DNA from: Actinocatenispora thailandica
Lineage (GTDB): Bacteria; Actinomycetota; Actinomycetes; Mycobacteriales; Micromonosporaceae
Direction: 5' to 3'
Length of the DNA stretch: 64,000 nucleotides
NCBI RefSeq assembly: GCF_016865425.1
Contig: NZ_AP023355.1
Span: forward strand, 4,028,198-4,092,197
Each line of letters starts with the position of its first letter. The stretch's first letter is position 1. The notes beneath the pieces are model-generated. The model saw only the letters and a list, made by a program, of their open reading frames with translations, made no database searches and had not been told where the DNA came from. Made by a program: the position numbers and the translations under genes. Shown here in pieces: positions 37,065 through 42,227 of this stretch.

Positions 37065-37757
37065 TCAGACGTCGGTGATCCGGATGCCGGCGTGCGCCTT
37101 GTACCGCCGGTTGATCGCGATCAGGTTCGCGGTCAGCGCCTCGATCTGGCCCGCGTTGCGCAGCCGGCCGGCGAACACGCCCCGCACCCCCGCGATCCGG
37201 CCGGCGAGCGCCTGCACCGTCTCCGCCGCCGCCCGGTCGTCCCCCAGCACCAGCACGTCGGTGTCCACCGTGGCCACCATCGGGTCGGTCAGCAGCACCG
37301 CACTGACGTGATGGAAGGCCGCGGTGACCCGGGTCTCCGGCAGCAGCGTGGCGGCCTGCTCGGCGGCACTGCCCTCCGGCACCGGCACCGGGTACGGGCC
37401 GCGCTGGTCGAACCCGAGCGGGTTGACGCAGTCGACCAGGATCCGACCGGTCAGGACGCCGCGCAGCGAGGTCAGCGTCTCGGCATGGCCCTCGTACGGC
37501 AGGGCGGCGATCACCACGTCGCAGTCCGCGGCCGCCGCGTTGTCGCCGCCGGTCACCTCTCCCGCATCCGCACCCGGCAACCCCGCCAGCTCCGCCGCCG
37601 CCGCCACGCCACGCTCGGCGCTCCGCGACCCCAGCACCACTCGCTGCCCGGCCCGCGCCAGCCGGTACGCCAAGCCCCTACCCTGCGGCCCGGTTCCGCC
37701 GAGGACGCCGACCGTCAGGCCGGACACGTCAGGCAACACACTCGCATCAAACGCCAT
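37065..37757 (-). CDS. npdG: NADPH-dependent F420 reductase
   Basis: A 230-residue F420:NADPH oxidoreductase, transferring hydride between NADPH and coenzyme F420, a deazaflavin typical of actinobacteria and methanogens. The dinucleotide fold is VGVLGGTGPQGRGLAYRLARAG near residues 15-35, followed by VLGSRSAERG for the NADP phosphate, VVIAALPYEGH, and the family motif DCVNPLGFDQRGPYPVP. C-terminal end NLIAINRRYKAHAGIRITD fits. Start ATG 37757, with ATG 37766 as alternative. It precedes the BtuF-like gene. It is cytoplasmic and supplies reduced F420 for F420-dependent enzymes elsewhere. Confidence 0.94.
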   Translation of the reverse strand: MAFDASVLPDVSGLTVGVLGGTGPQGRGLAYRLARAGQRVVLGSRSAERGVAAAAELAGLPGADAGEVTGGDNAAAADCDVVIAALPYEGHAETLTSLRGVLTGRILVDCVNPLGFDQRGPYPVPVPEGSAAEQAATLLPETRVTAAFHHVSAVLLTDPMVATVDTDVLVLGDDRAAAETVQALAGRIAGVRGVFAGRLRNAGQIEALTANLIAINRRYKAHAGIRITDV

Positions 37758-37913
37758 GCCACCCATTCAACCGCACCAGCGACCCGCGACGCCGCCAGGC
37801 CACGGCGCACGGCGGCCGGGCCGGGCCACGACCCGCGGGCCGCTGGGAGCGAGGCAGGTGCGGGGCGAGAGGCGCGAGGTAGCTGCGGGGCGCCGGGTAG
37901 CTGCGGGGCGCGG

Positions 37914-38010
37914 GCGCGAGGAACGCGAGGCGCGGGGCCCCGCGGCGCGGGGCGCAGGGCGCGAGGAACGCGAGGCGCGGGGCCCCGCGGCGCGGGGCGC
38001 GGGGCGCGAG
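37914..38010. repeat. 45-bp tandem repeats, about two and a fraction copies
   Basis: Two near-identical copies of GCGCGAGGAACGCGAGGCG-plus-GGGGCCCCGC begin at 37914 and 37959, and a third start at 38004 diverges after a few bases. Each contains a self-complementary GCGGGGCCCCGC stem. The same block also has two copies of GTAGCTGCGGGGCGCCGGG, at about 37879 and 38011. Confidence 0.85.
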
Positions 38011-38052
38011 GTAGCTGCGGGGCGCCGGGCACCGTGCAGGCACGGCCGGCGG

Positions 38053-38174
38053 GCGCAAGGAACGCGGGGCGCAAGGAACGCGGGGCGCAAGGAACGCGGG
38101 GCGCGCGGAACGCGGGGCGCGCGGAACGCGGGGCGCGCGGAACGCGGGGCGCAAGGAGCGCGGGGCGCAAGGCG
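38053..38174. repeat. 16-bp minisatellite, seven full units plus a partial
   Basis: Units of GCGCAAGGAACGCGGG (three copies), GCGCGCGGAACGCGGG (three) and GCGCAAGGAGCGCGGG (one) run head to tail from 38053, then a partial copy. The two-variant block structure suggests segmental expansion. It contains no gene: translations in any frame are repetitive Arg/Ala/Pro strings. Confidence 0.92.
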
Positions 38175-38594
38175 AGAGGCCACGGGACACCAGGCGCGGG
38201 CCACGCGCGAGACAAGGTCCGTGAGGTGCCCCCGGGTAGCCGGCGGCTACCGGCCCCCGGGCTCGGCACACGACCGGCCGGCCATCCGGCATTCGGGCTG
38301 TGCGGCCCAGCGCGGAGCCGCCGATCCCGAGTGCCGGACCAGCGACGCGACCGCCGACCTGGACCCATACCCGACCATCGAACCGCCGGCCCGGACGCGC
38401 CCGCGACCGTCGACCGCCGCGCCGGACGCGCGACGGGACCGCCGGCTGGAGCCGCCCGCACCGCCACGACCCGCCACGGCAGGAACGGGCCCGGCGGCGC
38501 TCACCGGCGGCGGGAACCCCGCGGCCCCGGTCGACGCGCACGCTGGGCCTGCCGTGGGTCGGACCTCGTGCTCCGACCCACGGCAGCAGCCGGG
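38175..38594. other. Gene-free flank between minisatellite and the histone-like gene
   Basis: About 420 bases with no convincing gene; long open frames in several phases are shadows of GC richness. It is followed by the 3' end of the histone-like gene at 38595. Several CCGGC-rich stems are present, and no tRNA or clear terminator was seen. Confidence 0.55.
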
Positions 38595-40829
38595 TCAGCC
38601 GCGCCGGGCGACGGCGGTCCTGGGCCGCCGGCCGGCGACGCCACTGCGTCCGCCCGGGCGGGCCCTCACCCGAGTCGCCGGCCGGCCGGTACCGGCGCTC
38701 GGCCGGCTCACCGAGCGGGCCGCCGGCGCCCGCCGGGTGCCGGACTGTCGCGGCGGGGTGCTGCCGGTGGCGCGGCCGGTACGACGCACGGTGCGGGAGC
38801 CCGACCTGCCCCGAGCCCCACTACCGGCCCGGGCGGACGGCGCACGGCCCGATCGCGTCCCCGCGGTACCGGCGGCTGCCGAGCGGGTGCTCTCGCCCCG
38901 CACCGTGGAGCGCTTGGCCGCCGGCCGGGCGGTACGAGCCGCGACGGTGCGGGCCGGAGCCCGCTTCGCCACCCGCCGCCGGGACGCCCGCGCCCGGCCG
39001 GTTGCCGACGCCGTACGGCTCGCGGACGCCGGTTTCCGCGCTGCCGAACCGCGCGCGGACGGCTTCCTCGCGGCCACCGCCTTGCGCACGCTGGTACGTC
39101 GGCCGGCCGGCGCCCGTCCGACCGCGGAACGGCGTGCCGGAGCCCGCTTCGCGGCCCGGCGCGGCGTGCTGGCCGATCGTGCGGTGGACTTGCGCGCCGG
39201 CGCCCGCTTCGCCGTCGAGCTGCGCGCCGCACCGGACCGAGCCGCAGGCGCGCGCTTCGCCATCGAGCTGCGCGCCGCACCCGACCGAGCCGCAGGCGCG
39301 CGCTTCGCCGCGGTCTTGCGGGCCGACGCCCGCGTGGCGGTGCCGGTCCGTGCCCTTGACGTGGCGACCGCTGTCTTCCGGGTCGCCCCACGAGCCGCCG
39401 TCGACCGTCGCGCCGCCGCGGGACGGCTGGCCGCCGTACGCGCCGTCGCCTTCCGAGCGGTCGCCTTCCGCGCAGGCGCCTTGCGCGCCGCGGTGCTCCG
39501 TGCCGCCGCCTTGCGCGCAGGCGCCTTGCGCGCGGTCGTCTTGCGCGCGGTCGTCTTGCGCGCCGTCGCCCTGCTCACGGGCGCGCGCTGGGCAGCCGAC
39601 TTGCGGACCGGAGCACGCTTCGCCGCGGCCGTCCGAGCGGTGCCCGCGCGCCGGGTGGTCGCCTTGCGTGCGGTCGCGGTGCGAGGCACGGCCGTCTTGC
39701 GGGTCGCCGTCCGGCGGGCGGCGGTGCCACGGGCCGCCTTGGTGGCCGGCGCACGCTTCGCGGCGGTCGCACGGGTCGACTTGCGCGCCGTCGTGCTCCG
39801 CGATGCCGCCTTCGTCGCCGGTGCACGTTTCGCGCTGGCCTTCCGTACGGTCGTGCGCTTGGCGGCGGTCGCCCGCTTGGCGACCGCACCGCGCGGGGCT
39901 GGCGCCGCCCGCTTCGTCGCCGTGGCACGCTTCGCGGTGGCCTTGCGGGCCGGGCTCGTCCGCGTCGACTTGCGCGCCGCGCTGGGCCGCGTCGCCGATT
40001 TGCGCGCCGCGCTGGGCCGCGTCGCCGATTTGCGCGCCGCGCTGGCCCGCGACGCCGTGGCCCCCTTGGCCGGCGTCGCGCGCTTGGCCGTGGTGCGCTT
40101 GGCTGTCGCCTTCTTCGCTGGCGCCGCGCGCTTGGCGGTCGCCGCCCTCGCTGGCGCCGCGCGCTTGGCCGTGGTCCGCTTTTCCGGAGCGCGCTTGGTC
40201 ACGGTCGCCCGCTTCGTTGCGGAGGCCCGCTTCGTGGCCGTAGCACGCTTGGTAGCCGGCGCACGCTTGGTAGCCGGACGTTTCGCTGCCGTCGCCCGCG
40301 TCGCCGCCGTCCTCTTGGCTGCGGTCGCCCGCTTCGCCGCCGGACGCTTCGCAGCCGGCACACGCTTCGTCGCCGCAGCACGCTTGGTAGCCGTCACACG
40401 CTTCGCCGCCGTCGCACGCTTGGTTGCCGCCGGACGCTTGGTCGCGGTCGCACGCTTGGTAGCCGGACGTTTCGCTGCCGTCGCACGCTTCGTTGCCGTC
40501 CTCTTGGTCGCGGTCGCCCGCTTCGCCGCCGGACGCTTGGTAGCCGTCGCACGCTTCGTTGCCGTCCTCTTGGCTGCGGTCGCCCGCTTCGCCGCCGGAC
40601 GCTTGGTAGCCGTCGCACGCTTGGTTGCCGTCGCACGCTTCGCGGGCGTGGCACGCTTCGTGGTGGTCTTGCGCGCCGACGTGGTACGAGTCGATGCGGC
40701 GCGCTTGGTCGCCGTCTTGCGGGCGGTGCCGGTGCGCGCCGTCGCCGTCTTGCGGCCGGTCGTCGCGGTCCGGGCACCGGTGGACTTTCGGGCACCGGTA
40801 CGTGCGGTGCTTCGGGTCGTTGTCGCCAT
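38595..40829 (-). CDS. Very long histone-H1-like (Lys/Ala/Arg/Thr-rich) nucleoid-associated protein
   Basis: A 744-residue protein starting at ATG 40829, with GGGGGAG 7 nt upstream. It begins MATTTRSTARTGARKSTG and continues almost wholly as Lys/Arg/Ala/Thr/Pro repeats such as KRATATKRPAAKRATAAKR. No HU domain or other folded module is present, unlike HupS/HupB-type proteins, which have an N-terminal HU domain and a tail of under 120 residues. The C-terminal third loses Lys and becomes Arg/Ser/Gly-rich. The DNA holds a 66-bp near-perfect tandem unit (22 residues) at 40498-40629. Very basic, so likely to bind and compact DNA. Actinomycete H1-like proteins are usually about 200 residues, so the length is exceptional. 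Function is inference. Confidence 0.9.
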   Translation of the reverse strand: MATTTRSTARTGARKSTGARTATTGRKTATARTGTARKTATKRAASTRTTSARKTTTKRATPAKRATATKRATATKRPAAKRATAAKRTATKRATATKRPAAKRATATKRTATKRATAAKRPATKRATATKRPAATKRATAAKRVTATKRAAATKRVPAAKRPAAKRATAAKRTAATRATAAKRPATKRAPATKRATATKRASATKRATVTKRAPEKRTTAKRAAPARAATAKRAAPAKKATAKRTTAKRATPAKGATASRASAARKSATRPSAARKSATRPSAARKSTRTSPARKATAKRATATKRAAPAPRGAVAKRATAAKRTTVRKASAKRAPATKAASRSTTARKSTRATAAKRAPATKAARGTAARRTATRKTAVPRTATARKATTRRAGTARTAAAKRAPVRKSAAQRAPVSRATARKTTARKTTARKAPARKAAARSTAARKAPARKATARKATARTAASRPAAARRSTAARGATRKTAVATSRARTGTATRASARKTAAKRAPAARSGAARSSMAKRAPAARSGAARSSTAKRAPARKSTARSASTPRRAAKRAPARRSAVGRAPAGRRTSVRKAVAARKPSARGSAARKPASASRTASATGRARASRRRVAKRAPARTVAARTARPAAKRSTVRGESTRSAAAGTAGTRSGRAPSARAGSGARGRSGSRTVRRTGRATGSTPPRQSGTRRAPAARSVSRPSAGTGRPATRVRARPGGRSGVAGRRPRTAVARRG

Positions 40830-41007
40830 GTTCCCGTCTCCCCCTGTGGACCCCCGCACGCGTCGGCGGAATTGCCGGGGCGAAGGTCCGTGACGAGTTG
40901 CCTGTCAGGCGTGGTGACCGTGTTGAGTTGTGGTTATGTTCGCCGCGCGGCAGGGCATCGGGACTCGTTGAGATGCGTGCTGTCACGATGCGCCGGGGCG
41001 CGGCCGA

Positions 41008-41205
41008 TCAGTCTGCCTCGCCGCGCCAGCGGGCGTCTTCGGCGTCCCATTCCTCGTTGCGCTCGTGCACCTGTTGCAGGGCATCGGCAGCCGCCTGCCG
41101 GGACTCGAACGGCCCGAGCAGGAAACGCGCCGGGCACTTCGTCGCGTCGTCCTCGACGCGCTGGTGCCGCAGGCACCAGTAGAAGCGCGGCTCCTCGTCG
41201 CTCAT
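41008..41205 (-). CDS. Small SPOR-domain-like protein
   Basis: A 65-residue protein starting at ATG 41205 with a strong GGAGGA ribosome site. The sequence EEPRFYWCLRHQRVEDDAT, then RFLLGPFESRQAAADALQQV, matches a small conserved actinobacterial protein often annotated as SPOR-domain-like; the GPFESRQAAADAL segment is the recognisable one. The C-terminus is charged (NEEWDAEDARWRGEAD). There is no signal or membrane helix, so a true septal peptidoglycan-binding role is doubtful. Two Cys residues (YWCLRH and TKCPAR) could bind metal. It is transcribed towards the histone-like gene. Confidence 0.87.
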   Translation of the reverse strand: MSDEEPRFYWCLRHQRVEDDATKCPARFLLGPFESRQAAADALQQVHERNEEWDAEDARWRGEAD

Positions 41206-41444: not shown

Positions 41445-42227
41445 CTAGCCCAATGCGTGGCCGAGTTCGGCGGCGAGCCGGCGCAGTTGCGGAGTGAAGC
41501 GGGCGATCGCGGCGTCGCTGATGCGTCCGAGCGGTCCGGACACCGATATCGCCATCCGGTCCAGGGCGCCTGGCAGCGCGACGGCGAAACACCGCACGCC
41601 GGTCTCCTGTTCCTCGTCGTCGACGGCGTATCCGCGTCGCCGCACCGACGCCAGCTGGGCGAGCAGTTGGTCCGGGTCGGTGAGCGTGGCCGGCGTGTAC
41701 GCCGGCATACCGGTACGGGAGAGCAGCGCGCGCACCGCCGCTTCGGGCAGCTGGGCCAGCAGCGCCTTGCCGACCGCGGTGGCGTGTGGCAGCACCCGGC
41801 GCCCCGGTTCGGTGAACATGCGCATCTGGTGCCGCCCGGCCGCCTGCGTCAGGTAGACCATTTCGTCGCCGTCGAGCATCGCGAGGTTGGTGGTCTCACC
41901 GGTCAGGTCGCGCAGCTCGACCAGCCACGGCTGGGCCCAGCCGCCGAGCAACCGGGTGGCGCGCTCGCCGAGGACCACCAGCCGGGGGCCCAGCGTGTAC
42001 CGCCGGGAGGGTTCCTGCCGCACGTAGCCGAAGCGGACCAGGCTGGCGACGAGTCGGTGCGCGGTGGGTGCCGCGAGGCCGGTGGCGGCGGCCAGCTCGG
42101 ACAGCGTGCACGGCCGGTCCGCGGCGCCGATCGCGTCGAGCAGTTGCAGGGTGCGGTCGACGGATTGGGCGCCGGAGCGCCCTGTGGCACCGCCGGAGCC
42201 CCGATGCTGGGTGTCGTACGAGGTCAT
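41445..42227 (-). CDS. IclR family transcriptional regulator, probable regulator of aceB
   Basis: A 260-residue IclR regulator starting ATG 42227. The N-terminal winged helix is SVDRTLQLLDAIGAADRP, then LSELAAATGLAAPTAHRLVASLV, then the effector-binding domain from about 95 to 255 (RDLTGETTNLAMLDGDEMVYL, VGKALLAQLPE, RGYAVDDEEQETGVRCFAVALPG). The latter is the IclR glyoxylate/pyruvate-type pocket. It is divergent from malate synthase aceB, whose promoter contains a pair of TTYCAYATCASGAAA boxes. So it is most probably the repressor of aceB, released by glyoxylate, allantoin-derived glyoxylate or a similar acid; ligand not shown by sequence. Confidence 0.92.
   Translation of the reverse strand: MTSYDTQHRGSGGATGRSGAQSVDRTLQLLDAIGAADRPCTLSELAAATGLAAPTAHRLVASLVRFGYVRQEPSRRYTLGPRLVVLGERATRLLGGWAQPWLVELRDLTGETTNLAMLDGDEMVYLTQAAGRHQMRMFTEPGRRVLPHATAVGKALLAQLPEAAVRALLSRTGMPAYTPATLTDPDQLLAQLASVRRRGYAVDDEEQETGVRCFAVALPGALDRMAISVSGPLGRISDAAIARFTPQLRRLAAELGHALG

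Follow-up and report, generated by a model that had tools for sequence, protein, structure and literature searches.

The long histone H1-like reading frame described here, from a chromosome of Actinocatenispora (Micromonosporaceae), is a real gene, its frame intact and under coding-type selection, and it belongs to a set of genes at one locus whose products evolve unusually fast in size; the more than tenfold range of lengths at that one locus is the surprising part. We read the encoded protein, with rather more confidence than doubt, as an H1-like polycation that stands alone, is intrinsically disordered and, by neutralising the charge of DNA, binds and compacts it, its repeat number being free to vary. 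Non-specific DNA binding and compaction would follow from its charge and from analogy with Hc2, AlgP and HupS, and we likewise infer disorder in vivo, abundance and timing. The window, as we call the whole stretch of 64,000 nucleotides that was analysed, lies in a 7.43-Mb single contig (genome G000), and within it the frame runs on the minus strand from an ATG at 40829 to a TGA at 38595-38597 without an internal stop (Table 1). The original prediction of a 744-residue H1-like ORF with a Met start, a ribosome site and a 66-bp tandem repeat is confirmed on every point in the sequence, the tandem amounting to 3.5 copies of the unit with 88% matches.

Table 1. Coordinates of the H1-like gene, its elements and its neighbours, numbered within the window
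Feature	Position	Strand	Remarks
H1-like polycation gene	38595..40829	-	744 codons, product probably disordered
66-bp tandem array, 22 residues per unit	40398..40632	-	in the Lys-richer N-terminal third of the H1-like gene
Ribosome-binding site AGGGGGAG	40838..40845	-	8 nt before the ATG; kept in four Actinocatenispora genomes
Terminator-like hairpin	38549..38586	-	perfect 15-bp stem around an 8-nt loop, starting 8 nt past the stop codon
Gene for a 65-aa acidic protein, pI 4.7	41008..41205	-	conserved upstream neighbour of the H1-like gene
npdG, NADPH-dependent F420 reductase	37065..37766	-	downstream neighbour of the H1-like gene
IclR-type regulator gene	41445..42227	-	further upstream; adjoins the 65-aa gene in three other Actinocatenispora genomes too

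Alanine makes up 31% of the protein, followed by arginine (20%), threonine (17%), lysine (10%), serine (7%), proline (6%), glycine (5%) and valine (3%), while D, I, L, F, Y, W, H, C and N are absent altogether, and the product, of 76.5 kDa, has a pI of 12.0 and a net charge of +227. Among the 83 window ORFs of at least 300 aa it alone contains fewer than 5% DEFILNQWYHCM residues (1.1%). The autocorrelation of its basic residues peaks at lags 5, 6 and 11 (0.45 at lag 5 and 0.34 at lag 6), and spacings of 5 and 6 are the commonest among its 84 basic doublets (KR, RK, KK or RR). That the protein would stand alone, with no HU domain, had been proposed beforehand and is borne out by Pfam, which finds neither an HU nor any other folded domain and matches only HC2 and a sub-cut-off Extensin_1; the HU profile PF00216 gives no match in it, and the HU matches of its own genome are at other loci. 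An AlphaFold2 model, which is weak evidence given that no alignment was used, has a mean pLDDT of 32, with 0 of the 744 residues at 70 or above. A weak PDB match to HrdB/SigA (three sequences, best E 1.7e-5) we take to be a matter of composition.

How does such a protein relate to those already known? In the open-licence literature, where titles and abstract openings were covered, we found no published account of an H1-like protein in this host or family, and the described stand-alone bacterial H1-like proteins that did turn up are short and come from Chlamydia and proteobacteria. Chlamydia Hc2 (HctB), BpH1 and the Burkholderia Hc2-like proteins share with the window protein a stand-alone build, basic repeats at pentamer/hexamer spacing, a variable repeat number and an HC2 match above the cut-off. 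An account of Hc2 describes its basic pentamer/hexamer repeat pattern and gives sizes of 165-237 aa for Hc2, 149-231 aa for the Burkholderia forms and 182-206 aa for BpH1 (PMC2848022); beside these described members, of about 150-240 aa, the window protein differs in being 744 aa long and Arg-rich. Pfam HC2 (PF07382) matches it with 72.4 bits against a cut-off of 40, and the cut-off is also exceeded in the three complete copies from the genus (72, 101 and 115 bits, the window copy included) and in both short orthologues tried (47 bits in G071 and 59 in G020), and in none of four long forms of other genera. A residue-shuffled copy gave no HC2 match (0 of 1), so order matters here and not composition only. 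The profile also matches the Lys-rich tails of Ku (42.9 bits, above the cut-off) and, below the cut-off, of topoisomerase I (24.8) and FtsK (33.7), which means that an HC2 match is no proof of descent, and we have not accepted Hc2 membership by profile alone. Two NCBIfam models stay under their cut-offs, NF038053 (hist_H1_lk_Burk, histone H1-like DNA-binding protein) with 74.3 bits against 80 and NF038052 (Hc2) with 33.3 against 135. Since the HC2 cut-off is passed whereas both NCBIfam cut-offs and the known size range are failed, we place the protein with the stand-alone H1-like kind; we see no evidence in the sequence for common descent with Hc2 and do not claim it.

The likeness extends to other basic tails. 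Streptomyces HupS and mycobacterial HupB carry an actinobacterial Lys/Ala-rich tail of a similar sort, but they join it to an HU domain, which the window protein lacks, and the HU proteins of its own genome are encoded by separate genes. There are two of these (L153 and L154), both with long Lys/Ala/Thr tails, and one of their genes is some 50 kb away from the H1-like one. Eukaryotic histone H1 has a globular winged-helix domain, and here too the window protein differs in having none. The resemblance is to the C-terminal tail of H1, with its Lys/Ala/Pro-type composition and disorder, as given for AlgP in PMC9239181. Pseudomonas AlgP (and the PhaF tail) in turn shares with our protein an H1-tail-like composition, predicted disorder and repeats; the repeat region of AlgP is reported to be a mutational hot spot, and an AlgP tail fragment and KPAA peptides to bind DNA (PMC9239181). 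In Streptomyces, the spore nucleoid is reported to become larger when the Lys-tailed HupS is lost, and acetylation to lower the DNA binding of HupS (PMC11229371).

GC-rich DNA keeps frames open, as the many long ORFs of the window attest, so openness by itself says little, and it is the codon-position pattern, together with the closed copies and the shared locus in relatives, that rules out a chance ORF. Differences are spread unevenly over the codon positions in 10 of 10 orthologue pairs, which span six genera (chi-square p between 2e-30 and 0.017), position 3 being the most changed in every pair, if barely so in G089/G129 (59/35/61). Set against G003, the window gene has 133/63/214 mismatches at the three positions, out of 543/546/540 in-register positions, with 246 more positions out of register; a C-terminal stretch compared between G003 and A. 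comari has 11/6/41, of 121 each. An overlapping plus-strand ORF at 37324-40893 was rejected as coding, since its position 1 would be the least and its position 2 the more variable, which is not a coding pattern. To be weighed against the gene, aligned codons show 150 synonymous against 161 other changes between G000 and G003, and 49 against 77 between G000 and G002, and alignment gaps are in frame (multiples of three) in 21 of 61 cases for G000/G003 and in 50 of 89 for G195/G190; the non-triplet gaps may be misplacement within repeats, or real local frame changes. Such gaps, and other changes about as numerous as the synonymous ones, indicate that the protein is loosely constrained. A short gene with a frameshift in relatives, which the original prediction had named as the observation that would tell against it, was not seen in the genus, where the three complete copies are uninterrupted frames of 509, 744 and 865 aa and the A. 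comari copy is split over two contigs.

Signals flank the frame at both ends and count in its favour. The same AGGGGGAG precedes the gene in G003, A. rupis (G002) and A. comari (G001), and beyond the stop codon a 66-nt stretch around the hairpin has a folding energy of -43.7 kcal/mol (z -4.25). In G003 a 14-bp hairpin, different in sequence, stands 43 nt past the stop, and in A. rupis the script used for G003 found no hairpin of 8 bp or more after the gene, so that hairpins mark the gene end in two of three genomes. A promoter/terminator consensus scan at the locus found none and an inverted-repeat search of the hairpin stretch listed none; the terminator scan left the hairpin unreported because it has no T-run.

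The small gene upstream marks the locus in other genomes. Its acidic product has no Pfam or NCBIfam match, and annotation pipelines name such proteins SPOR-domain proteins, a name unsupported in the present analysis; of 250 genomes from the family 213 have the gene, and of 296 from the class 179. We looked at 85 of those 213, picked for spread over genera and thus non-random, with the genus g29 over-sampled on purpose for long forms, and an H1-like ORF lies directly downstream of the 65-aa gene, on the same strand, in 79 of the 85 genomes and 21 of 23 genera, which disposes of a gene unique to one strain. It is missing from that place in the other six (G012, at L227, and all five genomes of genus g16, at L232-L236), with other genes there instead, and the H1-like gene is accordingly dispensable there or has moved, a point against the compaction reading. 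Start codons were set by rule (ATG plus a ribosome-like site); the copy of G265 (about 610 aa) was added by eye and stands outside the length statistics, and that of G099, which runs into a contig edge, is counted among the 78 copies and left out of the 77 closed ones.

On the other side, an rnb gene for an RNB-domain exonuclease (Pfam RNB 152 bits, RNase II S1) follows on the same strand in at least 59 of 78 loci, a lower bound as many loci end early, at a median of 78 bp from the H1-like stop, and npdG comes after the H1-like gene in at least 39 of 78 loci, many of which end before npdG would be reached. Outside the family, 9 of 27 loci have npdG no more than 1.3 kb beyond the 65-aa gene and on its strand, and eight of these nine (all but L274) have no H1-like ORF in between; comparing the two neighbourhoods, we consider 65-aa gene, H1-like gene, rnb and npdG to be the likely family order. 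In the window genome, G001 and G003 the nuclease gave no match, and within the genus only A. rupis has it; rnb is lacking in three of four genus members, all of which retain the H1-like gene, and this argues against a strict link to the RNB enzyme. The usual rnb place in the window (37767-38548) is about 780 bp without a recognised gene, with two minus-strand ORFs that have no Pfam match; a 16-bp unit recurs there 7.6 times, at 38051-38172. In four of the 27 outside-family loci (L271, L273, L274 and L275) a Lys-rich H1-like ORF of 119-169 aa adjoins the 65-aa gene on the opposite strand; three of the four come from genomes of 1.4-1.7 Mb, in L274 npdG comes after the H1-like ORF, and in L275 the reading frame of the ORF appears to switch partway.

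It is the spread of lengths that we find most striking. The 77 closed family copies, the window copy counted among them, run from 186 to 2171 aa with a median of 293, and although our chosen sample means that these figures are not population frequencies, 43 copies are of 356 aa or less and 30 of 500 aa or more. The window protein is thus long beside the forms of roughly 200-350 aa, as had been predicted, but it is neither unique nor extreme within the family, 17 of the 77 being longer. Long forms occur in g1 (509, 744 and 865 aa), g7 (820-1346), g15 (690), g24 (1167 and 1471), g66 (616-725) and g29, where they reach 2171 aa beside one copy of 250. The suggestion that the gene was perhaps expanding finds its counterpart in a length that is still changing, with near sisters on an rnb tree at 1791 against 2171, 605 against 535, 484 against 562 and 754 against 791 aa, differences of 37-380. 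On that tree, a quick one of 59 rnb proteins with some weak branches and with g7 absent, the long or short state (cut at 380 aa) switches at least four times, gains and losses being undistinguished. Scaling of length with genome size was considered and rejected (Spearman 0.14, p 0.54, 21 genus medians). Charge is lower in the longest forms, which tells against the compaction reading, the g7 copies and two complete g24 copies carrying +0.10 to +0.16 per residue, and several long g29 copies, from residue fractions, about +0.11 to +0.13.

A shift from Lys to Arg along the protein, which had been taken as the possible mark of a second function, is certainly present, with R/(K+R) by thirds at 0.53/0.64/0.85 in the window protein, 0.62/0.59/0.81 in G003 and 0.43/0.43/0.65 in A. 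rupis. It fares less well as the mark of another function, and we rejected the idea of a conserved second domain, as no more than 36 of 78 family copies have a C-terminal third richer in Arg than their N-terminal third (three of three complete copies in the genus). Along the window gene GC1 rises with the shift from 51% to 73% and GC3 from 78% to 86%, and a second function is no better an explanation of the shift than base composition.

A sceptic might say that slippage in GC-rich repeats has simply produced a long ORF of little function, and the GC-rich DNA with its many open frames, the non-triplet gaps and the recent origin of some repeat copies all lend something to that view. Where the window gene encodes the same 8-residue peptide twice, the DNA of the pair is 91% identical, against 82% expected with shuffled codons, from which it follows that part of the array is recent. 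Yet only 28% of these pairs are also identical in DNA and 72% differ, exact 24-bp repeats cover just 19% of the gene (and at most 38% of any of the 78 copies), and in A. rupis the corresponding identity is 87% against 86% with shuffled codons, 3% of pairs being DNA-identical. So few DNA-identical repeats mean that the greater part of the peptide repeats date back further than their DNA likeness would show, as fits with selection for the protein's repeat pattern. Add the excess of third-position changes in all ten pairs, and the fact that of 78 copies all but one form a single closed frame, the exception lying at a contig edge (though a copy merely shortened by a frameshift would escape notice), and slippage without function strikes us as very improbable.

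The nature of the ligand is a different matter. A polycation will bind to RNA or polyphosphate no less readily than to DNA, which counts against the DNA-compaction reading, and polyphosphate and DNA are not separable by charge pattern alone. One might therefore picture a polyphosphate-granule protein, a polycation that coats granules or tethers them to the nucleoid as AlgP does in Pseudomonas; AlgP, H1-like too, localises to such granules and needs its disordered tail for their spacing, according to PMC9239181. Our protein, though, departs from AlgP in having no helical N-terminal domain (in a single-sequence model) and no KPAA repeat at all, and in being more than twice as long. The identified neighbours, the RNB nuclease, npdG and the IclR-type regulator, have to our knowledge no link to polyphosphate, and we regard the granule reading as unlikely. 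RNA is the other candidate, in the shape of a scaffold that works with the RNB exoribonuclease encoded next door in most examined loci, for example in RNA-rich bodies. The close, same-strand position of that gene speaks for a scaffold, whereas the three Actinocatenispora genomes that keep the H1-like gene without rnb speak against it, as does a Pfam search of the protein that found no RNA-binding domain, and we would give the idea only a slim chance.

We therefore return to DNA compaction as the reading that we favour. Basic doublets mostly 5-6 residues apart over 744 residues, with a charge of +227, would neutralise backbone phosphates, and the polycation would then bridge DNA segments without sequence specificity, so that it would share the condensing of the chromosome with the genome's own two tailed HU proteins. 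It might do so in spores or in stationary phase, as the original prediction suggested. A function that comes from the pattern of charge, with no fold to preserve, would tolerate the gain and loss of repeats and could let length drift more than tenfold in the family. A bolder idea, which we put forward tentatively and would not ourselves bet on, is that one chromosomal locus throughout the family encodes an 'accordion' polycation, free of any fold and selected for its charge pattern. Its size would range from 186 to more than 2000 residues, having switched repeatedly between short and long forms and changed greatly from one sister species to the next, and its length may set how strongly DNA (or RNA or polyphosphate condensates) is bridged.

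The same gene, found in the same place in most of the relatives examined, encodes a real, probably chromosome-binding protein. With a family series of 186 to 2171 residues at one locus, one can ask if selection acts on the length of a disordered polycation, if that length is neutral or if it is tuned, and what such a protein does to a bacterial chromosome that has two tailed HU proteins already; and if the 'accordion' idea is true, the family would offer a natural series for relating chain length to compaction.
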